Origin: Rhodovibrionaceae bacterium | GTDB lineage: Bacteria > Pseudomonadota > Alphaproteobacteria > Kiloniellales > DSM-21159 | Direction: 5' to 3' | DNA length: 42,597 nucleotides | NCBI GenBank assembly: GCA_028282405.1 | Contig: JANQIA010000221.1 | Span: 1-42,597, forward strand | Shown: piece by piece, positions 2,173-29,905 of the stretch | Layout of the letters: each line of letters opens with the position of its first letter | How positions within the stretch are numbered: position 1 is the stretch's first letter | Notes under the pieces: model-generated | Seen by the model: the letters and a program-made list of their open reading frames with translations, nothing else | Databases searched by the model: none | Told to the model about the DNA's origin: nothing | Position numbers and translations under genes: made by a program

Positions 2173-2175
2173 GGC

Positions 2176-3177: not shown

Positions 3178-3219
3178 GAAACGTCTCCCTGAGGCTAGTC
3201 TAGCGTGTAAAGCGTGACG

Positions 3220-5905
<2,686 letters not shown>

Positions 5906-5946
5906 GACGCCGCCGCTCCTCCCTGCATCGTCCAGCTCTCACAAAA

Positions 5947-5967
5947 AGTACGCCAAAAACACGTACT
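5947..5967 (-). promoter_or_regulatory. Inverted repeat, candidate operator for the arc operon
   Basis: AGTACG (5947-5952) and CGTACT (5962-5967) form a perfect 6-base inverted repeat with a 9-base A-rich spacer. It lies between the candidate -10 box and the start of the YfcC-like gene, where a repressor would block transcription. The binding protein is unknown; the short symmetric arms would suit a GntR- or TetR-type dimer, but that is a guess. Confidence 0.35.
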
Positions 5968-5980
5968 AAAAGTAAGTATT

Positions 5981-6009
5981 AATCTAGACAGCGCGATTTT
6001 CTAAAGCAA
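5981..6009 (-). promoter_or_regulatory. Candidate sigma70-like promoter for the arc genes
   Basis: On the minus strand TTGCTT (6004-6009) is followed after 17 bases by TAGATT (5981-5986). It sits in an AT-rich island between ackA and the YfcC-like carrier gene. The -35 box matches consensus weakly and the -10 moderately. No FNR-type TTGAT-N4-ATCAA box was found here despite the expected link of the pathway to anaerobiosis. Confidence 0.3.
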
Positions 6010-6019
6010 CAACAACCCC

Positions 6020-7213: not shown

Positions 7214-7362
7214 GGCGCGGGGCTGCCTTGCCTATCTTCGCCGTGGAGCCTAGTGCCCCTTCATGCAGCACACCAGTCTCGACGGATTAAGTATTTGTTT
7301 CGCGGATACAACAGCATAGGCCTCGGCGCGGCACCACCCCCTTCGGCGTCATCATTCGCCAA

Positions 7363-8112: not shown

Positions 8113-8117
8113 CCTTG

Positions 8118-10067: not shown

Positions 10068-10149
10068 GGCGAAACGCGCTCCAGCTCGAGACAATCCAAC
10101 ACACGATTGTTGTACACCAAATAATACGCATCAACCCGAATGAAATATT

Positions 10150-10184
10150 TTGAATTTCTTCTGCAACAATTTGCAACAATTCAA
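10150..10184. promoter_or_regulatory. Tandem 10-base repeat within an inverted repeat, candidate regulator site
   Basis: TGCAACAATT occurs twice head-to-tail (10162-10171 and 10172-10181), a spacing of about one helical turn, which is the arrangement OmpR/PhoB-type regulators often bind. TTGAATT (10150-10156) and AATTCAA (10178-10184) also form an inverted repeat around it. It lies in the AT-rich 216-base region between the divergent kinase and PAS-LivG genes, so it could control either. The link to the neighbouring OmpR-type regulator is inference. Confidence 0.4.
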
Positions 10185-10233
10185 ACAAACTTCAGAAAAG
10201 ACACCTCCCTAGTCTCGGCCTGAATAAGAGAAA

Positions 10234-10254
10234 GCGGGGCCAAGACGACCCCGC
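10234..10254 (+). promoter_or_regulatory. GC-rich leader hairpin before the PAS-livG gene
   Basis: GCGGGG (10234-10239) and CCCCGC (10249-10254) can pair around a 9-base loop, 29 bases before the ATG at 10284. No T-run follows, so it is not a standard intrinsic terminator. It could stabilise the leader or affect translation; no known riboswitch was recognised. A GGGAGGA at 10264-10270 lies between the hairpin and the start, with a long 13-base spacer. Confidence 0.35.
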
Positions 10255-10283
10255 CATCATAATGGGAGGACCGACACCTGGCC

Positions 10284-11417
10284 ATGGCCAGCCATACGAC
10301 AGGTGAGAACGGGCAGCTAGAGGCTCTGCAGGCCGCGTTGGAGCAGCTCGATCAGGGTATCACCGTGTTCGACCGAGAGCTGCGCCTGGTGGGCTGGAAC
10401 CAGCGCTTCTTCGAGCTCTTGGAGTTCCCGCAGCGTTTGGCCCAGACGGGCACTCACTTCTCGGAGTTCATGCGCCACAACGCCGAGCGCGGCGAGTACG
10501 GCGACGGCGACGTCGATGCTCTGGTGTCGGAGCGGGTCGAGATCGCGCGCAGCTTCCGCCCCCACTACCTGGAACGGGTCCGGCCCAACGGCGCGGTCAT
10601 CGCGGTCAAGGGCGAGCCGCTCCCCGGCGGCGGCTTCGTCACGACCTACACGGACATCACGAAAGACCGCCGCTACATTCTGGAAACCGATGGCCTGACC
10701 AAGGAATTCAAGGGCTTCGTCGCGGTTCGTAACGTCAATCTCAAGGTCCGCAAGGGCACGATCCACGCCATGATCGGGCCCAACGGCGCCGGCAAGACGA
10801 CCGTCTTCAACCTCCTCACCCGCTTTCTTCCCGTCAGCAGCGGCAGCATCCGCTTCAAGGGCAAGGACATCACCCAGACCGGCGCCGACGCCATCGCCCG
10901 CATGGGCATCGTGCGCTCCTTCCAGATCTCATCCGTCTTCCCGCATCTCAGCGTGCGCGAGAACGTCCGGGTCGCCCTGCAGCGCAAGTATGGCCGCGAC
11001 TCCCAATTCTGGCGCCCGGCGCGGGAGCTCGACGGCCTGAACGACGAGGCCGAGAAGCTGCTGTTCGAGGTCGGCCTGGAGGACTACGCCGAGCTGATGG
11101 CCGTGGAGCTGCCCTACGGCCGCAAGCGCGCCTTGGAGATCGCCACGACCTTGGCGCTCGATCCCGAAGTCATGCTGCTCGACGAGCCCACCCAGGGCAT
11201 GGGCCACGAGGATATCGGCCGCATCACCGACCTGATCCGCAAGGTCGCGCAGAACCGAACCATTCTGATGGTCGAGCACAATCTCAGCGTGGTCGCCAAT
11301 CTCTCCCAGTGGATCACGGTGCTGCAGCGCGGAGAAATCCTGGCGGAAGGCACCTATGGCGAGGTGTCGCGCAATCCGGATGTGATCGAAGCCTACATGG
11401 GGTCGGCCCATGCCTAA
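10284..11417 (+). CDS. PAS domain-LivG fusion: branched-chain-type ABC transporter ATPase
   Basis: This is the first ATPase of a liv-type ABC importer, with an extra N-terminal PAS_7 domain (about residues 15-126). The ABC part starts at about residue 131 (YILETDGLTKEFKGF), where an ordinary LivG would begin. It has Walker A GPNGAGKT (165-172), a Q-loop Gln214, a signature variant ELPYGRKRALEIA (275-287), Walker B VMLLDEP (296-302) and the switch His332 in VEHN. All ATPase motifs are intact, so it is not a broken gene. The length is 377 residues against about 250 for LivG. The ATG at 10284 is in frame with the PAS domain, and no stop or start separates the parts. The PAS sequence is nearly a copy of the divergent kinase's PAS. 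It overlaps livF by 8 bases. A PAS domain could bind a ligand and gate ATP hydrolysis, or be a passenger; this is inference. Confidence 0.92.
   Translation: MASHTTGENGQLEALQAALEQLDQGITVFDRELRLVGWNQRFFELLEFPQRLAQTGTHFSEFMRHNAERGEYGDGDVDALVSERVEIARSFRPHYLERVRPNGAVIAVKGEPLPGGGFVTTYTDITKDRRYILETDGLTKEFKGFVAVRNVNLKVRKGTIHAMIGPNGAGKTTVFNLLTRFLPVSSGSIRFKGKDITQTGADAIARMGIVRSFQISSVFPHLSVRENVRVALQRKYGRDSQFWRPARELDGLNDEAEKLLFEVGLEDYAELMAVELPYGRKRALEIATTLALDPEVMLLDEPTQGMGHEDIGRITDLIRKVAQNRTILMVEHNLSVVANLSQWITVLQRGEILAEGTYGEVSRNPDVIEAYMGSAHA
10326..10661. repeat. Inverted repeat arm 2 (PAS domain of the LivG fusion)
   Basis: This is the counterpart of 9693-10028 in opposite orientation. Long identical DNA runs lie at 10455-10495, 10521-10558 and 10623-10660. 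The similarity stops at 10660, at the border between the PAS and ATPase parts. The 297-base spacer holds both gene starts and all the intergenic DNA. Confidence 0.85.
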
Positions 11418-12177
11418 CAGCGACATCCCGATCGCCGCCGGCTCGGAGGCCGCCATGAGAGCCTCGGCGACTGTCGAGCCGGTCATCCAGGTCGAGGGCC
11501 TGCAGGCCTACTACGGCGAGTCCCACATCCTGCACGGCGTGGACTTGACGGTTCACGAGGGCGAGCTAGTGACACTCCTGGGCCGCAACGGCGCCGGGAA
11601 GACGACCACCCTCAAGTCCATCATTGGCATGGTTGGCCAGCGCGCCGGCTCCATCCGCGTGCTCGGGCAGGAAACCGTCAACCTCAAGTCCAACCGCATC
11701 GCCCGGCTGGGCATCGCCTACTGTCCGGAAGAACGCGGCATCTTCTCCAGCCTGTCGGTGGAAGAGAACCTCTATCTGCCGCCCGTCATCGGCGAAGGCG
11801 GCGTCAGCGTCGAGGAGCTTTTCGAGCTCTTTCCGAACCTCAAGGAACGCCGCGGCACCAAGCAAGGTACCCGCCTGTCCGGCGGCGAACAGCAGATGCT
11901 GGCCATCGCCCGCATTCTCCGGACCGGCGCCAAGGTGCTGCTGCTCGACGAGCCCACCGAGGGCCTGGCTCCGGTCATCGTCCAGCAAATCGGCAACATC
12001 ATCCGCAAGCTCAAGGAACGCGGCTTCACCATCCTGCTGGTCGAGCAGAACTTCCGTTTCGCCGCCGGCCTCGCCGAGCGCAACTACGTCATGGAAGACG
12101 GACGGATCGTCGACATGGTGCGGCATGACGAGCTGGCGGCCAAGGAAGCGCAACTCCAGGAATTCCTGGGCGTATGA
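11410..12177 (+). CDS. livF: LivF-type ABC transporter ATPase
   Basis: This is the second ATPase subunit of the liv-type importer, on the cytoplasmic face of the membrane. The product has 255 residues with Walker A GRNGAGKTT (58-66), signature RLSGGEQQML, Walker B VLLLDEPTEGLAP and switch His region LLVEQNFRFA. The Glu-Gly-Leu after Walker B is typical of LivF. The N-terminus is about 20 residues longer than usual; an internal ATG at 11455 (MRASATVEP) is an alternative start. It overlaps the livG-like gene by 8 bases, indicating translational coupling. Unlike its partner it has no PAS domain. Confidence 0.95.
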   Translation: MPNSDIPIAAGSEAAMRASATVEPVIQVEGLQAYYGESHILHGVDLTVHEGELVTLLGRNGAGKTTTLKSIIGMVGQRAGSIRVLGQETVNLKSNRIARLGIAYCPEERGIFSSLSVEENLYLPPVIGEGGVSVEELFELFPNLKERRGTKQGTRLSGGEQQMLAIARILRTGAKVLLLDEPTEGLAPVIVQQIGNIIRKLKERGFTILLVEQNFRFAAGLAERNYVMEDGRIVDMVRHDELAAKEAQLQEFLGV

Positions 12178-12219
12178 CGCGACGTTGTGACACCGAGTGA
12201 GAAAGAGAGGACAAGAAAC

Positions 12220-13473
12220 ATGTTGAGGAAAACCCTTCTCGCGACCGCCCTCGGCGCGAGCGTCTTTGGCGCAAGCGTCTTTGGCGCAAGCGTCTTCGCT
12301 GCGGGCGCCATGGCCCAAAGCGCCATCGCAGCCGAGCTCTCCGACGACATGGTCAAGATCGGCGTCCTGACCGACATGGCCGCGGTCTATGCCGACCTGT
12401 CCGGCGACGGCTCCGTGCTGGCGACCCACATGGCGGTGGAGGACTTCGGCGGCAGCGTGCTCGGCAAGCCGATCGAGATCGTCTCAGCCGACCATCAGAA
12501 CAAGGCGGACATCGCCGCATCCAAGGCGCGCGAGTGGATCGACACCCAAGGCGTCGACATGATCACCGACCTGGTGACCTCCTCGGTCGCGCTGGCCGTT
12601 CAGGAAGTCGGGCGGGAGAAGAACCGCATCACCATGGTGACCGGTGCTGCGACCTCTCGCCTGACCGGCGAGAGCTGCTCGCCGCTCGGCTTCCATTGGG
12701 CCTACGACACCTACTCTCTCGCCAATGGCACCGGCACCGCCGTGGTCAAGAACGGTGGCGACACCTGGTTCTTCATCACCGCCGACTACGCCTTCGGCCA
12801 CTCGCTGGAAGGCGATGTCTCCAACATCGTCAAGGCCAACGGCGGCGAGGTGCTCGGCACCATCCGCCACCCCTTCCCGTCTTCGGACTTCGCTTCCTTC
12901 CTGCTTCAAGCGCAAGCCTCGGGCGCGAAGATCGTCGGCCTGGCCAATGCCGGCTCCGACACCATCAACGCCATCAAGCAGGCCTCGGAGTTCGGTATCG
13001 TCGAAGGCGGCCAGAACCTTGCCGGGCTTCTGATGTTCGTCACGGACATCCACAGCCTGGGCCTCAACGCCGCCCAGGGTCTGTTCATGACCACCGGCTG
13101 GTACTGGGATCTGAACGATGAGACGCGGGCTTGGGCCGCGCGCTTCGAAGCCGAGGCCGGCAAGAAGCCGACCATGATCCAGGTCGGCACCTACTCGGCC
13201 GTGCTGAGCTACCTGAAGGCGGTCGAGAAGGCCGGCACCGACGAAGCCGGCGCCGTCGCCGAAGCCCTCAAGTCCATGCCCGTCAACGACGTCTTCGCCA
13301 ACGGCGGCACGGTCTATCCGAACGGCCGCATGGCGCATGACATGTACCTCGCCCAGGTGAAGACGCCTGGCGAGTCGGCGGGCGACTGGGACTACCTCAA
13401 CATCGTCCGGACCATCCCGGCCGCGGAGGCCTTCCAGGACCCGGCGAAGAGCGGCTGCGCGCTGAGCCAGTAA
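12220..13473 (+). CDS. Periplasmic substrate-binding protein of the liv-type ABC importer
   Basis: This is a 417-residue type I periplasmic binding protein that captures the substrate and delivers it to LivH/LivM. It has a signal peptide (MLRKTLLATALGAS..., likely cleaved after AIA-A) and then the mature start ELSDDMVKIGVLTDMAAVYADLSG. The C-terminus ends KSGCALSQ. The ATG at 12220 is chosen over a GTG at 12187 because it places the signal peptide at the N-terminus and has GAGAGG 9 bases upstream. The protein resembles binding proteins for carboxylic or aromatic acids at least as much as leucine-binding LivJ (impression, not searched). The signal peptide carries a threefold GASVF repeat. Confidence 0.92.
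   Translation: MLRKTLLATALGASVFGASVFGASVFAAGAMAQSAIAAELSDDMVKIGVLTDMAAVYADLSGDGSVLATHMAVEDFGGSVLGKPIEIVSADHQNKADIAASKAREWIDTQGVDMITDLVTSSVALAVQEVGREKNRITMVTGAATSRLTGESCSPLGFHWAYDTYSLANGTGTAVVKNGGDTWFFITADYAFGHSLEGDVSNIVKANGGEVLGTIRHPFPSSDFASFLLQAQASGAKIVGLANAGSDTINAIKQASEFGIVEGGQNLAGLLMFVTDIHSLGLNAAQGLFMTTGWYWDLNDETRAWAARFEAEAGKKPTMIQVGTYSAVLSYLKAVEKAGTDEAGAVAEALKSMPVNDVFANGGTVYPNGRMAHDMYLAQVKTPGESAGDWDYLNIVRTIPAAEAFQDPAKSGCALSQ
12253..12297 (+). repeat. Three tandem 15-base units in the signal peptide
   Basis: GGCGCRAGCGTCTTY occurs three times in a row (12253-12267, 12268-12282, 12283-12297), encoding GASVF three times in the hydrophobic core of the signal peptide. The units differ at only one or two bases. 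Copy-number change would stay in frame and alter signal peptide length. Confidence 0.85.
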
Positions 13474-13509
13474 CGATCCACTGAAACGGCTGTCCGTGGG
13501 CGAAATCCG

Positions 13510-14427
13510 ATGACGATGGTTTTTGACGTTCCGCTGTCCTTCCTGGCTTTGCAGCTCTTCATCGGGCTGCAGAACGGGGCCTTCTACGCGCTGCTCAGCC
13601 TTGGGCTTGCCGTCATCTTCGGGATGCTCAACGTCATCAATTTCGCCCACGGTGCCCAGTACATGCTGGGTGCCTTCGCCACCTGGCTCGGTCTCGAGTA
13701 TCTCGGCATCTCCTATTGGTGGTCGCTCCTTCTGGTGCCGATCGTTCTCGGGCTCTTCGGCATTCTGATCGAGCGGGCGCTGCTGCGCTGGCTCTATGAC
13801 CTGGACCACCTCTACGGCCTGCTGCTGACCTTCGGCCTGGTGCTCATCATCGAGGGCTTGGTGACCGATGGCTTCGGCTCCTCGGGCCTGCCCTATGACA
13901 AGCCGGCTCTCTTCGCCGGCTCCGAACGCCTCGCGCTCAGCGGGCTGACCGGGAACGAGCGCGATTTCATGGTGGTGCCGATCTATCGCCTCTGGATCAT
14001 CGTGGCCGCGGTCATCCTCTGTATCGCGACCTGGTACATGATCGAGCGGACGCGGCTCGGCAGCTATCTCCGGGCCGCGACCGAGAACCCGGCACTGGTC
14101 CGCGCCTTCGGGGTCAATGTGCCGCTGCTGATCACCCTGACCTACGGCTTCGGCGTCGCCCTGGCCGGCTTCGCCGGCGTGCTGGCGGCCGGCCTGCAGG
14201 CGATCACGCCGCATATGGGCAGCAACCTCATCATCGTCGTCTTCGCCGTGGTGGTGATCGGCGGCATGGGCTCCATTCTGGGCTCGATCATCACCAGCTT
14301 CGCCCTTGGTCTCGTGGAAGCGATCACCCGCATCGCCTACCCCGAGGCCTCCAACATAGTCATCTTCGTGATCATGATCCTGGTGCTGCTGACGCGGCCC
14401 GCCGGGCTGTTCGGACGGGAGGCCTGA
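13510..14427 (+). CDS. livH: LivH-type ABC transporter permease
   Basis: This is an inner-membrane permease of 305 residues with about eight hydrophobic segments. It has the family's NGAFYALLSLGLAVIFGMLNVINFAHG motif near the N-terminus (key residues N, G, Y, L, G, N, F, H, G) and GGMGSILGSI, which contacts the ATPase. It pairs with LivM to form the channel. It starts at the ATG 13510, 36 bases after the binding protein stop, and is followed by livM after 3 bases. Length and motifs are normal. Confidence 0.94.
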   Translation: MTMVFDVPLSFLALQLFIGLQNGAFYALLSLGLAVIFGMLNVINFAHGAQYMLGAFATWLGLEYLGISYWWSLLLVPIVLGLFGILIERALLRWLYDLDHLYGLLLTFGLVLIIEGLVTDGFGSSGLPYDKPALFAGSERLALSGLTGNERDFMVVPIYRLWIIVAAVILCIATWYMIERTRLGSYLRAATENPALVRAFGVNVPLLITLTYGFGVALAGFAGVLAAGLQAITPHMGSNLIIVVFAVVVIGGMGSILGSIITSFALGLVEAITRIAYPEASNIVIFVIMILVLLTRPAGLFGREA

Positions 14428-14430
14428 ACC

Positions 14431-15402
14431 ATGGCACGCGCACTCGTTGCCAGCCTGACGGAAACCGCCGCGACCCTATCCTTGCGGCAATGGTTGCTGG
14501 TGCTCGCAGCCTTGGCGGTGCTCGTCGCGCTGCCCTTCTTCGTCTATCCGGTGTTCCTGATGAAGGTGATGTGCTTCGCGCTCTTCGCCTGCGCCTTCAA
14601 TCTGCTGCTCGGCTTCACCGGCTTGCTCTCCTTCGGCCATGCCGCTTTTTTCGGCTCGGCCTCCTATGTCGCCGCGCACGGGCTCAAGGTCTGGGGCCTG
14701 ACGCCGGAGATCGCCATCGCTCTTGCGACCCTGGTTGCAGCCGCGCTTGGGCTCGTCTTCGGCTTCATCGCCATTCGGCGCCAGGGCATCTACTTCGCCA
14801 TGATCACCTTGGCCCTGTCTCAGATGGTCTTCTTCGCCGCCCTGCAGATGCCCTTCACCGGCGGCGAGGACGGCATCCAGGGCGTACCGCGCACCGCCTT
14901 CCTCGGCATCTTCGACCTGTCCAGCAACCTCGCCTGCTACTTCTTCGTCATGGCGGTCTTCGTCTTCGGCCTCTTCGCCGTCTGGCGCACGGTGCATTCG
15001 CCCTTCGGGCAGGTTCTCAAGGCCATTCGGGAGAACGAGCCGCGCGCCGTCTCGCTGGGCTACCGTGTCGACCACTACAAGCTCACGATCTTCGTTATCT
15101 CGGCCGCGCTCTCGGGTCTCGCGGGCGGTACCAAGGCACTGGTGGTTCAGGTCGCCAGCCTGACCGACGTGACCTGGCAGATGTCCGGCGAAGTGGTGCT
15201 CATGACCCTGCTCGGTGGAATGGGTACGGTCTTCGGACCAGCCGTCGGCGCCTTCGTCGTTCTAACCCTGCAGAACTACCTCAATGCCTTCGGGTCGTTG
15301 GTTACCATCGTCATCGGCGTTATCTTTGTGATTTGCGTCCTGCTGTTCCGCCGGGGCATCGTCGGCGAATTGCAAGCACGACTGGGCCGCCGCCCAAGCT
15401 GA
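14431..15402 (+). CDS. livM: LivM-type ABC transporter permease
   Basis: This is the second inner-membrane permease subunit, 323 residues with about ten hydrophobic segments. Visible family motifs are NLLLGFTGLLSFGHAAFFG, a region around GIYFAMITLALSQ, ENEPRAVSLGY and LLGGMGTVFGPAVGAF. It follows livH by 3 bases and is followed by the acyl-CoA synthetase gene after 14 bases, so all six genes from 10284 to 17051 look like one operon. Confidence 0.94.
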   Translation: MARALVASLTETAATLSLRQWLLVLAALAVLVALPFFVYPVFLMKVMCFALFACAFNLLLGFTGLLSFGHAAFFGSASYVAAHGLKVWGLTPEIAIALATLVAAALGLVFGFIAIRRQGIYFAMITLALSQMVFFAALQMPFTGGEDGIQGVPRTAFLGIFDLSSNLACYFFVMAVFVFGLFAVWRTVHSPFGQVLKAIRENEPRAVSLGYRVDHYKLTIFVISAALSGLAGGTKALVVQVASLTDVTWQMSGEVVLMTLLGGMGTVFGPAVGAFVVLTLQNYLNAFGSLVTIVIGVIFVICVLLFRRGIVGELQARLGRRPS

Positions 15403-17155: not shown

Positions 17156-20100
17156 TTACTGCGTTTTGGCCGCTTTTGAGGAGTCGGACTGAGACGGATT
17201 GTTCGCATCGCCGATGAATACAACGGCCGTCTCGTACTCCTGAATGGCTTTCTCGCGGCGACCGAGGAAGTCTTGTAGGTGCCTGCGCAAGACCCGCGCT
17301 GCCTCGCGCAAGGCAGCCTGCTGCGCCCTCTTTGCGCTCTCCAGATCGCTGGCGGCCTTCTTCTCGGCCTCTGTCGCTTCGGAAAGCGTCTTCTCTGCCA
17401 TTGCAATGACGTCATCCGGGCTAGAAGCGGCTTTCTCCTCGGTCAGTTTGCGCTCGGCCGTTGCGCGCGCGTTTTGCCTCTCTTCCAACTCTCCACTCGC
17501 CTTGTCGACAAAGGCAATGGTATCGACCTTGGACCTCAGCGCCGGGTAGAGGCCCGCGACCTCGTCAAGGGCTGCATAGAGGCGCTCGGTCCTATCCGCT
17601 GTGGAAGGCTTGGCGGGCAAACTGTCGAGCTTGGTGTTTGCAGCAGGCAGCGTCTCTTGGGCCGCTGCATCCAGCTCGGCACTGAGCTCCGTTAAGCGCG
17701 CCCCCTGTTTGATATCCGCATTTCCGCTCCAGGCGCTCTTGATCGTCGTCACGAGGGTCGAAGTCGGCGCATCGTTCACCAGCTTTTGGAGAGCGGCGAA
17801 GTCCGTCTCAACGGCTTTGCCGTAGGCCTTTTCATGCTTCTCTAGCAGCCGCCCCATGGCGGACGTGGGTTTCTTGTCGACGGCGTCGGCACCCTGACCG
17901 ACGGTGCCGTCGTCCTGACGCACTTGCTTCAGGAGATTGCTGTCGAACTGGCCGCTGAGGCCAAAGAGCGCCAGATTCTTGGCCGACTTGATGATCGGCG
18001 CCGCATCTGCCGCGTACTTCTTGACGTACCAGTTGCCGATGTCGTCCTTCGCCATGACATAGTTCGTGTTGCCCGCGCCGGCGACGCGCACGCTGTTAAT
18101 GGTCTGCCAGAACTGCTTGTCTATCTCGGCGTTGATCTTGGCCTTTTCCCTGTCGGTGACCGCATCATTGTAGATCCAGCCGATTAACGGTGTGGTTCTC
18201 AGCCCATGCTCCGTCAGCATGTTCTCCCAGCCCAGGCGAGGACTGTCCTGGAGGTTGGTTGCCAGAAAGCTGCTGCGCAGATAGGCCCCCGGAGGCCGAA
18301 TGTAGGCCATACCGGCGCGATGCTCGTAGGCAATGCTGAGAGCTTCCGCCGTGAAACGGGCCGGCTCGGATTCCTTGCCGAACTCCTTGGTCGCCACCAG
18401 CAGTTCGTGCCGCAGCGCCGCGATCATGTCGTCGAGGACCTCTTTGCTGTGCTTACGCGGCGTATCGAGGGCCAGGTCGGCCGCGCTCGGCTGCTGCGGT
18501 AGCGCTAGTTTCGCAACAGCCTGTTTCGCCTTCGTGATTTTGTTCTGATCTTCGCCGTTGGGATTGGCCTGCCTGGCAGCGGCCACAGCCTGTTCGAAGA
18601 CTGCAAAGATAGCCCCTCTGAACTTGCCGTAGTCGCCGCCGGCACCGTCCTTCTCCGCCCGCTTGAGGATTTCTTCGCGACGCGCTTGCAGAGTTTTCAA
18701 GTTGGCTTGCGCTTCCTCCCGAGCGCCTGTCGCCTTTGTTTGCTGGTTCATCGCTTTCTGGAGCAGACGCTTTGCATCGGTAAGCAGCTCTTTCAGGCGC
18801 CTTTCGATTTCCGGTTTCTTTCCCAGGACTTTCCCGCGGAGGGCGTCGTAAACCTGTGTCGCACTCCCCGCGGCAATCTGGTCGAGAGTCGCAACGCCTT
18901 CGACCGCGAAGTATGTTCTCGCCTGCTTCAAAAGCTGGAGGCGCGGCTCATCTTTCAAGGCCGGCGGATAGTCGGCGATCTCAGTGTCGAGAGCTGCAAC
19001 GAGGGATGTCCGCGCCGTTGCGCCATCGATCATGCCGTCGTCCGACGCTGCATTGACCACGGCGCCCTGCAGCAGAGTCGGGTCGTTGCTCGTCGCTGAG
19101 CCGGAACCTTCGAGAAGAGCGACCGCACTCCAGCGCGGCGCCAGAGCGCTTAGCTCGGCATCGATTTCGGCCCCCGACCGCTTCGGCTCCATCTGCAGCT
19201 GAGCGGTCGCGCCACTATCGGTGACGCCTGCCGCTGCAAGCAGGGCTTTGACACGTTCAACACGTTTCTCGGCCTCCTCCTTTGCAGCTTCTGCGGACTC
19301 GACAGCCGCCTCGGCCGACTGAACCGAAGCGCTCAGCCGGGTCCGGAAGAAATCTAAGGCCCGCTCGTTGGAGCGCAGCAAGGCGGCCGCCATGGCGCGC
19401 CGCTCGCCGGGCTCTCGCGCCGCGAGCCCTTCTCCGTGCGTTCGACGATGGCGCAGTTCATCGGCCTGAATGCGAATGGAGTTGCCGGTGGCCTGCAGGA
19501 TGCGGATGTAGCGCGCCTGGTCCTGCTCCAGTTGACCTTTCAGTTCGGCCGACAGACCCTCTCGCGGGCGGACCTCCAAAAGCAGCTCGTGATCGGCGAT
19601 GAACAAAACCTTCTTGGAAAAGCGCACCAGGGCTTCCAATAAGCGGTCGCGCTTTTCGGCAATATCGTCATCGCGACGACTGCCACCCAACTTGGCCGAA
19701 GCCAGCAGATAGCGCTCGATGAGGGTTTCCAAGCCGTCCGGCAAACGACCGCGCTCGAGACCAGACGCAGAGGCAGCCGCCTGGACGTCTTGCCAGCGAG
19801 CTTGAAAGGTTGTCAGCTCGGCAGCTCGGAAGGTCGGTCCGCGAACCAGACCGTAAGTGCGTTGTTTCAGCTCCTTGAGCTTCGAACTCCCCGGAAAGCT
19901 CACTTCGCCGTAGGCCCGAAAGCGTGCGTCGGCTTTTTCCAGAGCCTTGATCGCGATCTCTATTTGATTTGGATCGTACAGGACCTTTGCCAACGATGCA
20001 TCGGCCTCTCTGTAAGGGAACCTCACACGCGGTTCCTGATTTGGTTTAGCAAACTCTTTCGCTTCTTTCCATATCTCAGGCTCCCGTTTCTCCAACCAAG

Positions 20101-21361
20101 CTCTCAGCTCATCGATATCATTGTCTTCCCTTGCCCGCGCGTACATCACCTGGGTCAGGTGCCAGGGTTGCGTCAGAAAGGCGATCAACTCGGCATAGGC
20201 CTTGCGCAGCTTCCACTTGTCACTTTCCATCAACTTATCTGACTCGTTTACAAACTCCAGTGTGGCCAGGGCATTGTTCCAGAGTTTCCGCAACTGTACG
20301 CGCGCATCACCGAACGCGGTCGCAATGATCACTATGCGCTTGGTAAAGGCCTTGGCAGCAGCAGAGTTCCGATTATCTCCAAAAAGAGCGCGCCCGTGCT
20401 GCGCGACCACTTCACTTCTGGCAAGGCTCTCGAAGATCAGGTTCGAGTGATCCTGCTGTAGTTCCTTGTCGCTTTGTTCCCCGCCGGGCCGCGCCGCCTT
20501 GAGTGCTGCGAGGTTCGCTTGGCTCGTCGAGTCGCCTGCTGCGACGCTCGCTAACTCAGAAACGAATATGGAATAGGCGACATTAACAGCAGCGCTTCGC
20601 CAGAGCTTCTCAAACGCACCGTCTGTTGCCGGTCTCCACAAGCTCTCCCACGTCGTCAGATCATTGAGATCCTGGTCGGAAAGCGGCACCCCGAGATACT
20701 TCTTGTACGCGAGCCTCAAGAGCTCGCGCGATTGCTTGAGCCTGTCGAGATTTGCTCCTCTCCTGACCGAGACGCTCAACATCGTCTGCAGGTCATTGAC
20801 GGTGACCGGAAGGAAGGCCTCCTCCGCGGACGCCTCCTCCCAGATGCGCGTGTTCTCTTGATCGTGAAAAAAGACGATGGCGCGATCGTAAGCCTCAATG
20901 GCCAAACGGCCTTCCTCAATGAAGGGCTCCAGGTCCTCCTGGCCTGCGTCCTCGTAGAGATAAAGCACCCCGTTGACGCGGGCAGCAGCCTCCTGCCAAG
21001 TCTTCTTCTCATTGCGAACCCGAGAGCCATCCTTCGCTCTGCAGTTCGCCTCGTCTGGCCTCAAGATGTATCCTGGCTGATACCATGTACGATGACTGCG
21101 CATGCATTGGCGGATGGAGTCGTTCGGCCACTGCAGACGGTCGCGCAGCGAGACCAGGAGCGGCTTGGCGCCGATTGCCAGGGCCGCGAACTGCTCGATC
21201 TGCACGTGCTCGTGATCGGCCAGCGGGCCCTTGTAGACGTCAACGTCGATGCGAGCGACGGCGCAGCCGGCGAGCAGGACGGCCAGCATCAAGACGCTGC
21301 AACGGCACCAAGAGCCGCGCCAGGCCGGGTGCTTCTCGCCTAAGCCTCTTTGCGCGGTCAT
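17156..21361 (-). CDS. Giant predicted lipoprotein of unknown function (1401 residues)
   Basis: I do not recognise this gene. The product begins with a lipoprotein signal (SVLMLAVLLAGC, lipid-anchored Cys33), so it is probably tethered to a membrane facing the periplasm or the outer surface. The rest is highly charged and mainly helical. Coiled-coil-like Ala/Glu/Lys stretches lie around residues 665-710 (SAEAAVESAEAAKEEAEKR) and near the C-terminus (about 1300-1370). No enzymatic motif was seen. The ATG at 21361 overlaps the TGA of the upstream lipoprotein gene (ATGA), so the two are translationally coupled. Codon use looks less GC-biased than the neighbours by eye, which may indicate transfer. 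The gene is convergent with the acyl-CoA synthetase gene, 104 bases apart, with no clear terminator between. Confidence 0.8.
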   Translation of the reverse strand: MTAQRGLGEKHPAWRGSWCRCSVLMLAVLLAGCAVARIDVDVYKGPLADHEHVQIEQFAALAIGAKPLLVSLRDRLQWPNDSIRQCMRSHRTWYQPGYILRPDEANCRAKDGSRVRNEKKTWQEAAARVNGVLYLYEDAGQEDLEPFIEEGRLAIEAYDRAIVFFHDQENTRIWEEASAEEAFLPVTVNDLQTMLSVSVRRGANLDRLKQSRELLRLAYKKYLGVPLSDQDLNDLTTWESLWRPATDGAFEKLWRSAAVNVAYSIFVSELASVAAGDSTSQANLAALKAARPGGEQSDKELQQDHSNLIFESLARSEVVAQHGRALFGDNRNSAAAKAFTKRIVIIATAFGDARVQLRKLWNNALATLEFVNESDKLMESDKWKLRKAYAELIAFLTQPWHLTQVMYARAREDNDIDELRAWLEKREPEIWKEAKEFAKPNQEPRVRFPYREADASLAKVLYDPNQIEIAIKALEKADARFRAYGEVSFPGSSKLKELKQRTYGLVRGPTFRAAELTTFQARWQDVQAAASASGLERGRLPDGLETLIERYLLASAKLGGSRRDDDIAEKRDRLLEALVRFSKKVLFIADHELLLEVRPREGLSAELKGQLEQDQARYIRILQATGNSIRIQADELRHRRTHGEGLAAREPGERRAMAAALLRSNERALDFFRTRLSASVQSAEAAVESAEAAKEEAEKRVERVKALLAAAGVTDSGATAQLQMEPKRSGAEIDAELSALAPRWSAVALLEGSGSATSNDPTLLQGAVVNAASDDGMIDGATARTSLVAALDTEIADYPPALKDEPRLQLLKQARTYFAVEGVATLDQIAAGSATQVYDALRGKVLGKKPEIERRLKELLTDAKRLLQKAMNQQTKATGAREEAQANLKTLQARREEILKRAEKDGAGGDYGKFRGAIFAVFEQAVAAARQANPNGEDQNKITKAKQAVAKLALPQQPSAADLALDTPRKHSKEVLDDMIAALRHELLVATKEFGKESEPARFTAEALSIAYEHRAGMAYIRPPGAYLRSSFLATNLQDSPRLGWENMLTEHGLRTTPLIGWIYNDAVTDREKAKINAEIDKQFWQTINSVRVAGAGNTNYVMAKDDIGNWYVKKYAADAAPIIKSAKNLALFGLSGQFDSNLLKQVRQDDGTVGQGADAVDKKPTSAMGRLLEKHEKAYGKAVETDFAALQKLVNDAPTSTLVTTIKSAWSGNADIKQGARLTELSAELDAAAQETLPAANTKLDSLPAKPSTADRTERLYAALDEVAGLYPALRSKVDTIAFVDKASGELEERQNARATAERKLTEEKAASSPDDVIAMAEKTLSEATEAEKKAASDLESAKRAQQAALREAARVLRRHLQDFLGRREKAIQEYETAVVFIGDANNPSQSDSSKAAKTQ

Positions 21362-22023
21362 GAGGAGCCCGCGTGCGCCGGCGGCAGCGCCGCGTCGACG
21401 TCACGCTCCAAATCCTGCAGCTTCTGTCGCTCGCTGCGCAGCTCTATCAGCGCTTGGAAAAGCTTCTCGTCCAAGGCGTCATCCGCCTGGCTGGCGCGCG
21501 CCTCGGCGATGATGCCGAGCGACTCGTCAATCGCTTCGAAGAAGTCCTCCGGGCTCGAGCCCATGACCACGACCAGACGATGATCGCGGGGTGCTTCGCG
21601 GAAGCCTTCCGGCCCGAAGACCATCAGCCGACGGCCAGTTGTCAGTTTTGCCAGCTGCTCTGAGGCGCCAGCGTCAATCCGAACACCGCCGGTCTTCTCT
21701 TCCTCGAAGCCAACGCTGGAGCTCAGCGAGTCGATCAGGGGGGCTGGAACCCAACCGCTGGCGAACCGCATGAAGCTGATGAAGCTGGCTTGCCCGTGCA
21801 GGCGGATACGATAGACGGTGGGCGGCAGCTGCTCCTGCGGATCGAAGGCGCCAAGGTAGTAGGTCTGCTGGATTTCCTGCGAGGGAGTGTTCGCGCCCAG
21901 CACCGTCGCCCCGACACTGCTGCCGATGATCTCTCCGGTAGTGCAGCCCGTGAGCCAAAGCCCCAAAAGACCGAGCACCGACGCAACCCGACGCCTCGTT
22001 CGGCAATCACCCTCTTGCCGCAT
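21358..22023 (-). CDS. Small predicted lipoprotein of unknown function
   Basis: This 221-residue protein has a lipoprotein signal peptide (VLGLLGLWLTGC, Cys27) and then TTGEIIGSSVGATVLGAN, a glycine-rich start common in outer-membrane lipoproteins. The body has a predicted beta-rich middle (YRIRLHGQASFISFMRF, RLMVFGPEGF, HRLVVVMGSS) and a helical, charged C-terminus with LRSERQKLQDLERDVD. No family was recognised. A TTG at 22041 is in frame, but the ATG at 22023 is preferred because GGGGGGAGAAGG lies directly before it. It is the first gene of a two-gene operon with the 1401-residue lipoprotein, and the two probably form one complex (inference). Confidence 0.8.
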   Translation of the reverse strand: MRQEGDCRTRRRVASVLGLLGLWLTGCTTGEIIGSSVGATVLGANTPSQEIQQTYYLGAFDPQEQLPPTVYRIRLHGQASFISFMRFASGWVPAPLIDSLSSSVGFEEEKTGGVRIDAGASEQLAKLTTGRRLMVFGPEGFREAPRDHRLVVVMGSSPEDFFEAIDESLGIIAEARASQADDALDEKLFQALIELRSERQKLQDLERDVDAALPPAHAGSS

Positions 22024-22092
22024 CACCTTCTCCCCCCACAAATTCTGCTTATTGTTTTTGTTCTCCAGAAAAAATACACGACCAACGGTAGT

Positions 22093-22261: not shown

Positions 22262-22951
22262 TCAGCTCTTCCGGCGCTGGACGAGGTTGAAGCTGATGCT
22301 GATGCGCACGCCGGCGTCGCCCTCGGCCTCGCTCAGGTTGGGCTCGACCTCGTGGGATAGCCAGGCGGGGAAGAGGATGAGGCGCCCTTCGACCGGCTCG
22401 AAATAGACCTCGGTCCAATTGTGCGCCTGCTGGCGCCCCTCCGCGTGAATGCGCGGCCTGAGCATCTGCGCCTGCACCCGCGGGTCGGTGAAGTAAATGC
22501 GGCCCGAGCTCTCCGGCGCTTGGATGTAGTAGACCCCGCTCCAGATCACGCCCGGGTGGACGTGTGTCCGATTGAAGGCATGCCGCGGGCTGATGTTGGC
22601 CCACATATTGTCGATCGCAGGCACGAAATCCGGATCGTAGGCCTGGTCCTGATAGACTCCGCCGGCGGCCTCCAGCACCTGGGTCGACAACTCGGCGAAC
22701 TCATCGCGCCGATTGAGATCGTCCTGGCTGTGCCAAGCGCCGGCCTGCTTGACGTTGGAGCGATGCAGCCCGTCCGCATCCTGCTCGCGCATGGCGTAGA
22801 TCGCCTGCTTCAGCGCCTGGTTCAACGCGGCGCCACCGGGCACGTCCGTGAAATAGATGTACGTCGGAAAGTAGGCTTCCCGTTTCAGAAGGTCGCTCAC
22901 GCCTGCCCCTTCGGCCATCCCTGCCCCGGCTTCTTGCCCGATCGCCGCCAC
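22262..22951 (-). CDS. 2OG-Fe(II) oxygenase family protein (2OG-FeII_Oxy_5-like)
   Basis: This is a putative 2-oxoglutarate/Fe(II)-dependent dioxygenase of up to 229 residues, matching the TIGR02466/2OG-FeII_Oxy_5 pattern. The core shows THVHPGVIWSGVYYIQAP (His130, His132), RIYFTDPR, LFPAWLSHEVEPN (His200) and GVRISISFN (Arg216), consistent with iron- and 2OG-binding residues in a double-stranded beta-helix; the exact iron ligands are inferred. The GTG at 22951 directly abuts the stop of the adaptor gene; the ATG at 22918, preceded by GGGGCAGGG, is an equally good start. It is the last gene of the run that begins at 29842. The substrate is unknown; the giant secreted protein is a possible target. 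Confidence 0.82.
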   Translation of the reverse strand: MAAIGQEAGAGMAEGAGVSDLLKREAYFPTYIYFTDVPGGAALNQALKQAIYAMREQDADGLHRSNVKQAGAWHSQDDLNRRDEFAELSTQVLEAAGGVYQDQAYDPDFVPAIDNMWANISPRHAFNRTHVHPGVIWSGVYYIQAPESSGRIYFTDPRVQAQMLRPRIHAEGRQQAHNWTEVYFEPVEGRLILFPAWLSHEVEPNLSEAEGDAGVRISISFNLVQRRKS

Positions 22952-23821
22952 TCAGTCGAGGGCGGCCGCGTCCTGCAGAAAGAGCACGCTACAGCGAATA
23001 CCAGCCGGCAGGGCTTCGTCGCTGTTGTCGAGCTTGAGGCGCACCCCGAAGGTCCCGCTTGCCGCATCGAAGACGCGATCGACGACCGAAACGACCGCCT
23101 CGTAGCGACCGCCGATCGGCTGCACCGGCTCAACGATGGCCTTCTGGTTCAGGGCGATCTCGCCGTAGCGGCGCACGGGCACGAAGACTTCGACGTTGAG
23201 CTCGTCGATGCGCGCCAGGCTGAGCAGCGGCGCCTGCTCGTGAATGTACTCCCCAGCCGCCTTGCTGACCTCTGTGACGATGCCGTCGATCGGGCTGCGG
23301 ATGGTGCGGCGCTCCAGGTTCGCCTCGGCCAGTGCCAGCTCCACCTTCGCCACCTTTCGGCGGAGCGTGGCGGACTCCACGTCGAGCGCGGAGATCTCCT
23401 CTTCCACCATGGCCTCGTCGCGCGCCTGGTCGGAAACGATGCGTCGTTGAAAGAGCTTCTCGGCGCGCTCCGCCTCCTCCCGCAGGTAGGCCAGGCGGGC
23501 CTCGCGGGAGCGCACGTCCACATCCTGCTCCGCCTCGATACGGGCCAAGTCGACGGCCAGCGTCTCCAGGCTGGCCTCCAGGCGGGCCAGGACCTGGCCC
23601 TTGATGACGTGGTCGCCACGCGTGACCTGAATCTCCTCGAGGATGCCTTCGTCGGCGCTGCCGATCTGGGCGATGGTGGTCGGCTCGATCGTGCAGTCGA
23701 GGGCCTGCTGTTGCTCATCGAGCGACTGCGCGCCACCCGGAGACGACAGCGTCAGCCAGAGCGGCAACAGCGCCAGGCCGGCAACGCCAAGCCGAAGAGA
23801 GGTTTTCTTGCTCATCATCAT
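22952..23821 (-). CDS. HlyD-family periplasmic adaptor protein
   Basis: This 289-residue membrane-fusion-type adaptor has a signal peptide (LRLGVAGLALLPLWLTLSS, likely cleaved after GGA-Q or AQ-S) and is predicted periplasmic. A biotinyl-lipoyl-like half (ILEEIQVTRGDHVIKGQVLARLEA) is followed by a helical hairpin (about 90-175, with repeated Glu/Arg/Ala heptads), the second lipoyl half (IRSPIDGIVTEVSKAAGEYI) and a beta-barrel segment. It is shorter than most RND or type I adaptors. The start is one of three ATG codons at 23821, 23818 and 23815; the first overlaps the SecA-like stop as ATGA. An adaptor without its own pump or channel in the window suggests it serves the neighbouring fusion proteins. 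Confidence 0.9.
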   Translation of the reverse strand: MMMSKKTSLRLGVAGLALLPLWLTLSSPGGAQSLDEQQQALDCTIEPTTIAQIGSADEGILEEIQVTRGDHVIKGQVLARLEASLETLAVDLARIEAEQDVDVRSREARLAYLREEAERAEKLFQRRIVSDQARDEAMVEEEISALDVESATLRRKVAKVELALAEANLERRTIRSPIDGIVTEVSKAAGEYIHEQAPLLSLARIDELNVEVFVPVRRYGEIALNQKAIVEPVQPIGGRYEAVVSVVDRVFDAASGTFGVRLKLDNSDEALPAGIRCSVLFLQDAAALD

Positions 23822-25786: not shown

Positions 25787-27934
25787 TCACAGGCTGAAGC
25801 GGCTGAGGAAGAGCTGCCGGAGCTGGCGATAGAGCTGATAGGCCAGCGGCCGTTCTCCGTGGTCGAAGCGCACGAAGACGCGGGCCCCGACACCGGTGGC
25901 GGCGATGGGCTCAGCGAGCCTGAGATCGAGCTGATAGAGCAGCTCGAGCGCCGTCTGCCCGCTGGGATCGCTCGGGTCGACGGAGATCTGGCCACCGCCC
26001 TCGGTGGCGAAGGCAGGGCTGGGAAGCTGATCGGTGACGAAAGGCATCTCCCGGATGACCTCGGCCGGCAAGACCTGGGAGAAACGGTCGGCAAAGCGAA
26101 CGCGCACCTCGCCGGTTTGCCCACGCACCAGGTCGATGGCGCTCTGCGGGACAACCACCCGCACTAGCGGGTCGGCGAGATTGGCAACATAGCCGACCGA
26201 CTCGCCCTTCTGCAGATAGAGGCCTTCCAAGTCGGTGGCCGTCCCCGTGAGGAAGCGCCCACCGGCGGGGCTGCGAACGGTCATCTGCTCGGCCCGAGCC
26301 AGGTTGAGCGCCAGCTCCGCTTCCGAGTGCTTGATCCGCTCGGCGACCACGCGGGCCTCAGCCAAGTCGACAACCCGCAGCGCGTCATAGCGCAGGCGCA
26401 GCTCGGCAAGCTCCGCCTCGACCACCCGAACCCGCGCCGGCAGCAGCGGGTCGCGAAGCTGCAAGAGCGGCTGGCCTTGCGCCACCACGCTGCCCGGGGT
26501 CGCCAAGATCTCGGTCACCACGCCGTCGGCGCTCGCGTTGACCAAGGTCTCCTCCTCGGCCCAGACCACCCCCTCCGAGACCGTGCCGAAGGGAATCGGC
26601 ACCACGGCGACCAGCGCCGTCACGATGACCGCCACGACCCCCGTCACGACGAAGGCGCGCGGACGCTGCTCGCGCAGCACCGGGCTGTTGAAGAGAAAGG
26701 CGCAGGACTTCAGCAAGGGCCAGACGAACATCATCATCCCGGCCCAGATGCCGAGAATGACGCCGACAACGAAGAACTCCGAGGCGACGAAGACGATGAT
26801 CGTGAAGGTGATGAAGAGGCGGTAGCAGAAGGCAGCGATGGCGTAGAAGAAGAACCAACCGGCCTCCCCCGGCGCGGTCACCGGAGAGATCGCATTGTCG
26901 ACGCCGAAGAGATAGCGCTGGATGAGGTAGCCGATGTAGCGGTTGGAGCGCGGGCCGAGATTGGGGATTTCGATCAGATCGGCCAGCACATAGTAGCCGT
27001 CGAAGCGCAGCAGCGGGTTGCCGTTGAACAGCAGGGTCGAGACACCGCCGATCAGCATGACGTTGAAGGCGAAGGCCTTGAGCAGACCGTCCTCGAGATT
27101 GAGCCAGAGAAAGAGCGCCAAAGCGGCGAGCAGCAGCTCGACCATCATGCCGGCCGAGCCGACCAGCGCGCGGTGCCACTTGCTGGGAAAGGATGAGACC
27201 GAGGTCGCGTCAACGTAAGGCACCGGCATGAAGACGAGGAACATCACCCCCATCTCGTGCACCTCGCCGCCGCCGACCTTGGCGGCGTAGCCGTGGCCCA
27301 GCTCGTGCAGCGCTTTGACGAAGGGATAGGTAATCGCCAGCAGCAGCAGGCTTTCGGTCGCCAGCACGCGGTCGGCGATGTTGTCGGTCAGCGCCGGCCA
27401 GTGCATCACGGCCAGCACGGTCGCCGAACCGGTAATCGCCAGGAAGAGCAGCAGCCCAAACCAGGAAAAGAAAGGCCGGACGAAGGGTAGCGTGACCGTG
27501 AGGAAACGGTCCGGGTCGATCAACGGCAGCCGCATGGCCAGCGGATTCATGAACTTCTGCAGCAGCTTGCGGCGCTGCTGCTTGTCGGCCCGCGCCGCCA
27601 TCTCCTGCAGGTCGGGGCTGCTGTCGCCTAGCAGAATGTCCGCGTGGTGCAACTGGGCGAGCAGCCGGATGACCTCGTCTTGGGTCAGGTTGTCGTCGCC
27701 CAGGCGGTCGCTGGCCAGCTCCCAGATCTCCTCCACCGTGCGCCGACCGTCCATCAAGCTGATCAGCAGGTGCGCCTCGGGCGTGAAGCGGTGATGCCGG
27801 CCGGACGCCCGGTCGCGCACCACGTACCAGCGCTGGCCGCGGAAGCTGTGACGATGGATGCGGGCATGGGGCCGCAGGGCGGGCCTGAGCTGAGCCACCC
27901 GGTACCAAGAGGAGCTTCGTAAGCTCATCGACAT
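25787..27934 (-). CDS. PqqD-like / M50 metalloprotease / HlyD fusion membrane protein
   Basis: This 715-residue protein has three parts. Residues about 28-102 form a PqqD-like winged-helix domain (YVVRDRASGRHHRFTPEAHL, LMDGRRTVEEIWE), the fold used as a peptide recognition element. Residues about 155-445 form a multi-pass site-2-protease-like domain with the zinc motif HELGH (210-214) and FDGYYVLAD (311-319). From about 450 a periplasmic HlyD-like part follows, with lipoyl halves (VNASADGVVTEILATPGSVV and TVRSPAGGRFL) and a short hairpin. The ATG at 27934 has AAAGG 6 bases upstream and follows the GAF-HlyD stop by 9 bases. Inference: it binds a substrate in the cytoplasm, cleaves or holds it in the membrane, and links to the adaptor. 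Confidence 0.88.
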   Translation of the reverse strand: MSMSLRSSSWYRVAQLRPALRPHARIHRHSFRGQRWYVVRDRASGRHHRFTPEAHLLISLMDGRRTVEEIWELASDRLGDDNLTQDEVIRLLAQLHHADILLGDSSPDLQEMAARADKQQRRKLLQKFMNPLAMRLPLIDPDRFLTVTLPFVRPFFSWFGLLLFLAITGSATVLAVMHWPALTDNIADRVLATESLLLLAITYPFVKALHELGHGYAAKVGGGEVHEMGVMFLVFMPVPYVDATSVSSFPSKWHRALVGSAGMMVELLLAALALFLWLNLEDGLLKAFAFNVMLIGGVSTLLFNGNPLLRFDGYYVLADLIEIPNLGPRSNRYIGYLIQRYLFGVDNAISPVTAPGEAGWFFFYAIAAFCYRLFITFTIIVFVASEFFVVGVILGIWAGMMMFVWPLLKSCAFLFNSPVLREQRPRAFVVTGVVAVIVTALVAVVPIPFGTVSEGVVWAEEETLVNASADGVVTEILATPGSVVAQGQPLLQLRDPLLPARVRVVEAELAELRLRYDALRVVDLAEARVVAERIKHSEAELALNLARAEQMTVRSPAGGRFLTGTATDLEGLYLQKGESVGYVANLADPLVRVVVPQSAIDLVRGQTGEVRVRFADRFSQVLPAEVIREMPFVTDQLPSPAFATEGGGQISVDPSDPSGQTALELLYQLDLRLAEPIAATGVGARVFVRFDHGERPLAYQLYRQLRQLFLSRFSL

Positions 27935-27943
27935 AGCGTGCCT

Positions 27944-29842
27944 TTAAGGCCACCAGGCCCAAAGCTTGAACCGCAGCCAGTGCAAGAGCTCCTGCGTCCA
28001 GATCTGGATCAGCAGCCGGCGCCCGGCATCGGTCTTGGCCACGCCCTCCATGCCGGGGCGCAGGCCTTCGCTGCGGTCGTCGAGCACCGCCTCGACCCGG
28101 AAGAAGTTGCGGCCCTCGCGCGCCTCGGTGATCGGGGTGATGCGCTCTACGGTGTAGGGCAAGGTCCGGTCGAGCAAGGCAGCGACCTTCAGCTCGCCCG
28201 TCTGGCCCGGCGCGATCTCCGTCACCCGAGCCTCGTCTACCTCCAAGATGACCCGGTAGGAGTCGAGTGGGGCGATGCGAAAGAGCTCCTCCCCGCGCTT
28301 GACGGCCGAGCCGATGGACTGGCTGAGGTCACCGGCGACGATCACGCCGTCGAAGGCCGCCACCAACCTGGTGCGCGCGAGCTGTTCTTCGATCAGGGCG
28401 ATCTGCGCTTCCGCCTGCTGGATCTGCGCGCGCACGATGTTGATGCCGGCGCGGTCGCGGTTGGCCAGCGCCTGGTCGTACTCGGCCTGCCGCTGCTGGC
28501 GGGTGGTCGTCCAGCGCAGGTGCTCGAGCGACAGATCGCGGTCGTCGAGGGTGGCCAGCACCGTGCCGGCGCTCACCTCGTCGCCGGCCCTTGCGGCCTG
28601 GGAGGCGACATAGCCATCGAAGGGTGCGACCAGCACGCGCTGGATGCGGCCTTCCACCTTGGCATCCGCGGTCACCCGGTAGTCGTCCTTGTAGAGGGCG
28701 AAGAACGCGACCAAGAGGGCGATGGTGCCGAAGGCGAGCTTGCGCCCGAGATAGTGAGGCCCGAAGAGACGCCCGGTCTGAGAGACCAGAGACTCCCAAA
28801 TCTTCGAGACGAGGAGCCGGTCGTTGCGCCGCTTCTCCTCCAACAAGGGGCCGACCGCCGCGGCAATGGCATCGCAGAGGTCCACGGCATCCTGATCGAA
28901 GGGACTCTCGCCGGCCCGCTGGAAAAGCAGCGCGCCAAGCGGCTTGTCCTCGTGGATCAGCGGGACGGTGAGGACGGTGGCCTCGTCCAACAGCCCGGCC
29001 AGCTCGCGATGCGCAAGCGTAATGTGATAGTCCCCCTCCTCAGGCGTCGGAAAGAGGACCGCGCATTCCTGGTCGCTCGCCTCTTCCATGGCGGCCGCCA
29101 TGGCCTGCACCAGGTTCATGCGCCGCCCGAACTCGGCGGTATGAGACAGGGCGACAACCTTCATACGCTGGCCGGAGAGCATGCCCAGGCCGACCAGGTC
29201 GCAGTTGAGACGGGTGGCCAGCTCGGTGACCACCGCCTTGCAGGCCGCGCTATAGCTTTGCTGCTCGATCAACAAGGCGATCAGGTCGAGCGCCGCGCTG
29301 GTCTTGTCGAGGCTATGGGCGGCCGCCTGTCCCTCCTTCCGGCGCCAGGCCAGCTCCAGCCAGGCGGCACCCCACTGCAATTGGCGCATGACCGCCCGCA
29401 GTTCTTCGGCACTGCGGTCCGCCACCTCCAAGGCCACGGCGCCGCGGGCCTTGCCGTCGATGACGAAGGGATAGGCCGTGCAGCAGAAGCTGCCTTCCGC
29501 CGGCCCATCCTGTCGATGGCCCGAGACGACGCCCTTCGCCTCTTCGATCGCGCGTTTTGCGGTGGTCAACAGCGAGGTCGGCCCATCGCCGCCGCCCTCG
29601 GGCCAGTGGCTGGCCAACCGCAAACCGGCGCCGTCCTCGCGCTCGAGGAACAAGCCAGCGCGGGCGACCCCATCGATCATGCGGCACTGCAGGACGAGCC
29701 AGAACTCGGCCAGCTCCGCCGGAGAGTCCGCTTCGGCCAGCCGGTTCCAAAGCGCCCTGTCGAGATAGGCAACGCGGCGAACGGCCTCGCCCTCGCTCAG
29801 CCTCGCGGCTGGGTCGATGGACAGATGGCCGTCGCTGGTCAT
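27944..29842 (-). CDS. GAF-GAF-TM-HlyD fusion protein
   Basis: This protein of about 632 residues has two GAF-like sensory regions in the cytoplasm (about 20-165 and 185-335), one membrane segment (about 368-384, LAFGTIALLVAFFALY) and a periplasmic HlyD-type adaptor (about 395-600) with lipoyl halves (VLVAPFDGYVASQAARAGDEV and LVAAFDGVIVAGDLSQSIG) around a helical hairpin. A GTG at 29872 is an alternative start; neither start has a strong ribosome binding site, and 29842 was chosen as the ATG. It lies 63 bases after the DUF3467 gene and 9 bases before the M50-HlyD gene. The layout suggests an adaptor whose state is set by a cytoplasmic ligand; the ligand is unknown. Confidence 0.87.
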   Translation of the reverse strand: MTSDGHLSIDPAARLSEGEAVRRVAYLDRALWNRLAEADSPAELAEFWLVLQCRMIDGVARAGLFLEREDGAGLRLASHWPEGGGDGPTSLLTTAKRAIEEAKGVVSGHRQDGPAEGSFCCTAYPFVIDGKARGAVALEVADRSAEELRAVMRQLQWGAAWLELAWRRKEGQAAAHSLDKTSAALDLIALLIEQQSYSAACKAVVTELATRLNCDLVGLGMLSGQRMKVVALSHTAEFGRRMNLVQAMAAAMEEASDQECAVLFPTPEEGDYHITLAHRELAGLLDEATVLTVPLIHEDKPLGALLFQRAGESPFDQDAVDLCDAIAAAVGPLLEEKRRNDRLLVSKIWESLVSQTGRLFGPHYLGRKLAFGTIALLVAFFALYKDDYRVTADAKVEGRIQRVLVAPFDGYVASQAARAGDEVSAGTVLATLDDRDLSLEHLRWTTTRQQRQAEYDQALANRDRAGINIVRAQIQQAEAQIALIEEQLARTRLVAAFDGVIVAGDLSQSIGSAVKRGEELFRIAPLDSYRVILEVDEARVTEIAPGQTGELKVAALLDRTLPYTVERITPITEAREGRNFFRVEAVLDDRSEGLRPGMEGVAKTDAGRRLLIQIWTQELLHWLRFKLWAWWP

Positions 29843-29905
29843 TGCCGTGCGCCAATCATGCCGCGTCCTCACTCCACCGGACTAGGTCGCAAGCATGGGC
29901 CGGGC

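Follow-up and report, generated by a model that had tools for sequence, protein, structure and literature searches.

The closest precedent for the system considered here is MpaP, the daptide RRE-site-2 protease proposed by its discoverers to remove a leader with the motif ELExMEAP (PMC10036551). In MpaP/DapP an N-terminal RRE is fused to an M50 membrane protease, and the precursors carry an N-terminal leader motif that contains LE. Also pertinent are the C39 PCATs, single assemblies that read a leader, cleave it and export a cargo of at most about 10 kDa (PMC8277102), type I secretion of RTX adhesins of the LapB/SiiE type, with its periplasmic adaptors and giant RTX/PKD substrates, and SecA and accessory SecA2. 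For proteins with the LEPR-XLL domain (NF012209), and for DUF4347 giants, no export route is described in the open-access literature searched, nor was an account of a PqqD-M50-HlyD/LEPR-XLL system found there.

The locus at issue lies in a window, i.e. the whole stretch of DNA analysed, of 42,597 nucleotides from a Rhodovibrionaceae bacterium (Table 1). Its 715-residue protein shares with MpaP/DapP the fusion of RRE and M50 protease, and the LEPR-XLL and DUF4347 giants are the presumed substrates of its cassette, with LEPR-XLL paralleling the N-terminal LE-containing motif of the daptide precursors; the protein differs in having an additional adaptor, in presumed substrates that are giants rather than short peptides, and in being from Gram-negatives. 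The daptide HExxH equivalog model, NF041824, spans both domains (residues 20-406) with 148.5 bits, which does not reach its curated cut-off of 300 bits and makes the protein a relative rather than a member. In contrast to daptides, no RiPP modification enzymes were recognised in the cassette, save for an occasional 2OG oxygenase, and RiPP biosynthesis was rejected as a role, with no short precursor or modification set recognised there and with a giant as presumed substrate. Resemblance to type I secretion extends to the periplasmic adaptors, to TolC in some loci and to giant RTX/PKD substrates, but the cassette is without an ABC transporter and has a membrane metalloprotease and a SecA-like ATPase, and in its giants the conserved end is the N-terminal one, with its motif, rather than the C-terminus. 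With C39 PCATs the likeness is in the proposed union of recognition, cleavage and export, whereas the M50 protease is unrelated to C39 and an ABC is again lacking. The architectural and genomic case that the system combines an RRE-site-2 leader protease, of a known kind, with adaptors of the tripartite type is strong.

Table 1. Features of the locus (positions in the window)
Feature	Position	Strand	Remark
TIGR02466 2OG-Fe(II) oxygenase, accessory	22262..22951	-	recurs near other cassettes
RND-type periplasmic adaptor	22952..23770	-	
SecA-like ATPase (NBD1-PPXD-NBD2 only), ~659 aa	23818..25797	-	start codon not fixed
PqqD-M50-HlyD protein (P0001), 715 aa	25787..27934	-	ATG start; PqqD, M50 and HlyD domains
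Periplasmic adaptor (HlyD/MacA/MexA-like), residues 446-715	25790..26599	-	HlyD_3 match and structure matches
M50 (site-2) protease membrane domain, residues ~130-444	26603..27547	-	7 predicted TM helices
FDGYYVLAD, residues 311-319	26978..27004	-	D312 invariant, presumed third zinc ligand
HELGH zinc site, residues 210-214	27293..27307	-	H210, E211, H214 invariant in 58/58
PqqD/RRE-like domain, residues ~10-106	27617..27907	-	cytoplasmic side inferred
GAF-HlyD, 642 aa: GAF domain, TM, periplasmic adaptor	27944..29872	-	
DUF3467 protein, 113 aa	29906..30247	-	family match
Giant PKD/RTX/dockerin-like protein, at least 4080 aa	30355..42597	-	runs off contig end

Three domains in one chain

The first-pass annotation had read the ORF as a PqqD-like domain joined to an M50 protease and a HlyD adaptor; all three parts are present in the 715 residues, and its numbering of HELGH (H210/E211/H214) and of FDGYYVLAD (311-319) is correct. 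For the N-terminal part, Pfam PqqD gives an E value of 0.0039 with the whole chain and 2.9e-4 with the domain alone, and is matched by 39 of 43 orthologous N-domains (best 1.2e-7), an assignment that is weak from one sequence and firm across the family; an ortholog profile likewise finds PqqD 3g2b (residues 18-102, E 0.0035). As the full-length model, used as query against known structures, gave nearly only adaptor matches, the N-domain was folded separately. It folds at pLDDT 88.8 with the three strands and three helices of PqqD, and matches the lasso-peptide RRE-leader complexes 5v1v (Z 8.8) and 6jx3 (Z 8.7) and PqqD 5sxy (Z 8.4, 2.8 A, 89 aligned). The best-scoring row of that search belongs to an unrelated domain, from a methyltransferase (Z 9.7), and unrelated winged-helix rows score as well as the RREs (8hkr, Z 9.7); the assignment therefore leans on the Pfam match too. 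The earlier proposal had been staked, as far as structure goes, on the PqqD fold of this domain, which the Pfam matches across the family together with 5sxy, 6jx3 and 5v1v bear out.

The Peptidase_M50 match (E 1.4e-4, 21.7 bits) is under the gathering score of 27.2, and that of the ortholog profile to the site-2 protease 3b4r is weak (E 0.34). The M50 hallmarks, HExxH and a distal Asp motif in TM helices, occur as HELGH and FDGYY in 58 of 58 orthologs, among which H210, E211, H214 and D312 are without variation, and the same four residues are kept in relatives at 21-27% identity. Because of this invariance, in orthologs and distant relatives alike, catalysis by the M50 domain is argued for.

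The adaptor matches HlyD_3 (E 4.9e-9) and, in structure searches, MacA (Z 14.5, 4.6 A, 229 aligned) and MexA (Z 13.6), and it has the barrel-sandwich, beta-barrel and helical hairpin of HlyD/RND adaptors. In the full-length model (pLDDT 85), the helices between PqqD domain and adaptor suggest seven TM segments, a topology that would put the former in the cytoplasm and the latter in the periplasm.

A recurrent cassette

Orthologs at 45-68% identity are present in Alpha-, Beta- and Gammaproteobacteria, Desulfobacterota, Nitrospirota and one Deferribacteres MAG, where the common gene order is giant, DUF3467 or SapC, GAF-HlyD, PqqD-M50-HlyD, SecA-like ATPase and RND-type adaptor. The window has the same order in its DUF3467 variant, with the 2OG oxygenase at the tail. 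GAF-HlyD is upstream of the PqqD-M50-HlyD gene in 67 of 68 loci and the SecA-like gene downstream in 62 of 63. A dedicated ABC transporter, by the type I criterion, is not a recurrent part among 63 loci, just two of which have a T1SS-ABC-like match nearby, and TolC adjoins the cassette in few loci only. DUF3467 (27/68 loci) and SapC (18/68) are seemingly interchangeable beside the cassette (L029-L107, by a rule-based count), SapC being also a member of the Campylobacter S-layer type I operon. The TIGR02466 oxygenase can be on either side (L030:14976-15644, L076:7320-8129, L081:7216-7887, L106:7228-7896) and could have the giant or another cassette protein as its hydroxylation target.

Diverged members, at 25-31% identity and in some cases on Azospirillum and Citrobacter plasmids, have the arrangement giant, TolC, RND adaptor, HlyD and M50-HlyD; a SecA-like gene was not seen in the stretches read around them. 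On a Citrobacter plasmid (L171:11640-17935) such a cassette is beside a giant Ig-like protein with N-terminal LESRQLFDGA, and E. coli plasmids carry a similar M50-HlyD gene. In the window itself, two lipoprotein-like ORFs downstream of the cassette, at 17156-21361 (1401 aa) and 21358-22041 (227 aa), have no family match and, for want of a counterpart in related loci, are not counted with the cassette. The flank at 1234-15402 encodes routine metabolic functions (the arginine deiminase pathway, an acetate kinase, a histidine kinase, a urea/branched-chain ABC importer). A role of the cassette in anti-phage defence was rejected, there being no PADLOC match.

Giants and the LEPR-XLL motif

The window giant combines a lactonase-like beta-propeller and a dockerin-like domain with PKD and RTX repeats and a long stretch rich in Gly. 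Its reading frame continues uninterrupted to the end of the contig at 42597, so that the protein does not begin at the TTG at 42525, and the N-terminus, with which the first-pass annotation had wanted the PqqD-like domain modelled, is outside the window. Relative to a Pseudomaricurvus giant that is 55-57% identical over the aligned parts and has LEPRLLLSAD near residue 70, about 650 N-terminal residues are absent. The missing piece was not found in the organism's own incomplete MAG, with NF012209 and the relative's N-terminus as queries; the closest relative, at 68% identity, has LEPRLLLSAD in its giant.

Giants of cassette loci reach about 15,000 residues, and several are named LEPR-XLL proteins in public annotation. 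The N-termini printed have an Arg-rich start, then LEPRxLLSAD within ~20-100 residues, and no Sec-type hydrophobic stretch was seen in them by eye; N-termini of this kind, without a hydrophobic signal, would set the giants apart from Sec substrates. Variant motifs occur in the giants of two diverged cassettes, LEPRFMFDA in Azospirillum and LESRQLFDGA in Citrobacter, and PF07595, the short Planctomycete extracellular motif, has a weak match (E 0.22) on a Thalassospira giant. The C-termini differ and share nothing, though conservation is poor among T1SS signals too. A single genome can have as many as about nine LEPR matches, several of them away from the cassette (G295 and G326; Marinobacterium, Nitrospirales), and such proteins are possible substrates in trans.

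Among 398 Pseudomonadota genomes, all 33 with LEPR at E<=1e-4, and 39 of 40 at E<=1e-3, have a relative of PqqD-M50-HlyD. Reciprocally, LEPR at E<=0.05 is found in 38 of the 39 genomes with a strong PqqD-M50-HlyD match, the one exception being the window's own genome with its giant cut by the contig end, and NF012209 is above cut-off in 37 of 40 genomes that carry an ortholog. As a comparison control, the LapB-type (LssB/LapB) T1SS ABC is over its cut-off in only 22 of the 40 clear-LEPR genomes. Thirteen genomes have weak LEPR matches (E 0.003-0.05) without the protein. The trend is the same in a second phylum, where the numbers are smaller (p 5e-6) and three genomes have a LEPR match, one at E 5e-5, without the protein. 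These counts ignore phylogeny; gene adjacency, which is independent of such correction, is seen for 24 of 53 LEPR places within 20 kb of the PqqD-M50-HlyD gene, 19 of them no more than 6.5 kb away and on its strand. The domain architecture, the conserved zinc site, the conservation of the cassette and its co-occurrence with LEPR-XLL are established.

A shortened SecA-like ATPase

The SecA-like protein shares with SecA and accessory SecA2 the order NBD1-PPXD-NBD2 and an intact ATPase core. Its match to B. subtilis SecA (about 1e-126) ends at residue 555 and the protein stops ~80 residues past motif VI, without most of the helical scaffold, the two-helix finger, the wing domain and the C-tail of SecA. 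In the 39 SecA-like proteins where motif VI was found, 69-95 residues follow it, and ATPases lacking wing domain and C-tail are a widespread family among these cassettes. Since the sequence ends so soon after motif VI, a SecA-like partnership with SecYEG is probably beyond this protein. We regard it as a candidate motor, and not the sole energy source, as some cassettes are without its gene (Thalassospira L022, Azospirillum L027).

Proposed export route and rival readings

We favour, with a probability of roughly 0.6, a reading in which PqqD-M50-HlyD is the inner-membrane recognition and processing component of a dedicated export machine for giant surface proteins with LEPR-XLL. The PqqD domain, in the cytoplasm, would bind the leader, i.e. 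the Arg-rich tail and LEPRxLLSAD, as RREs bind leader peptides, and, by analogy with daptides, would hold it for the M50 site, with a cut near the LEPR motif. The fused adaptor and the two further adaptors, GAF-HlyD and the RND-type protein, suggest a tripartite-type conduit through the periplasm, which might lead to a TolC-type channel, and the SecA-like ATPase, where present, may push or unfold from the cytoplasm in place of an ABC transporter. Leader binding, cleavage and transport by the cassette are what we infer. The first-pass annotation had a single chain recognise, cleave and hand over its substrate; that sequence of events fits the seven-TM topology and the very strong genomic link to LEPR-XLL, but the chain seems not to be self-sufficient, since its gene stands in a conserved cassette that also encodes a SecA-like ATPase and two further adaptors.

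A more conventional arrangement, in which the giant is exported by a standard type I ABC system with its genes elsewhere and the cassette just processes, folds or envelope-anchors it, would account for the RTX repeats of the window giant and for an LssB/LapB-type T1SS ABC on another contig of the same genome (C530) that could export it. Such an ABC is, as noted, over cut-off in 22 of 40 LEPR genomes, but the other 18 are without one while 39 of 40 have PqqD-M50-HlyD, the cassette has no ABC as a part, and the giants' C-termini, where an uncleaved T1SS signal would be, are not conserved; we regard this arrangement as unlikely. Many PqqD domains merely bind and present peptides, and the M50 domain might then be a catalytic or structural relic, with the protein an adaptor or docking platform only and the leader bound without cleavage. 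That is less likely still, given that H210, E211, H214 and D312 show no variation, whether among the 58 orthologs or among relatives at 21-27% identity. Site-2 proteases often work in regulated intramembrane proteolysis and the partner GAF-HlyD has a GAF domain, so that the M50 protease could instead cut a regulator, with sensing via GAF-HlyD, and control expression of the giant; however, no anti-sigma factor or regulator recurs in the cassettes examined, and the adaptor fusion and SecA-like partner indicate transport rather than signalling, which leaves such control very improbable.

Beyond the favoured role in export of LEPR-XLL giants, a more tentative proposal, for which we would offer rather less than even odds, is of a distinct Gram-negative secretion class in which a LEPR leader is read by an RRE and cut by a site-2 protease, with a multi-adaptor conduit and a truncated SecA-like motor but without an ABC, RND or MFS transporter.

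Meaning for giant protein export

At 5,000-15,000 residues, the giants are among the largest bacterial proteins known, and the near one-to-one link of LEPR-XLL with the protein offers a testable export route for them and a candidate function for the motif. That secretion would draw on RiPP-type leader recognition and on a SecA-derived ATPase is unexpected, and if the absence of a classical transporter is confirmed experimentally, the system would be a separate secretion class. Were it such a class, LEPR-XLL would be a portable export signal, as its several occurrences away from the cassette imply.
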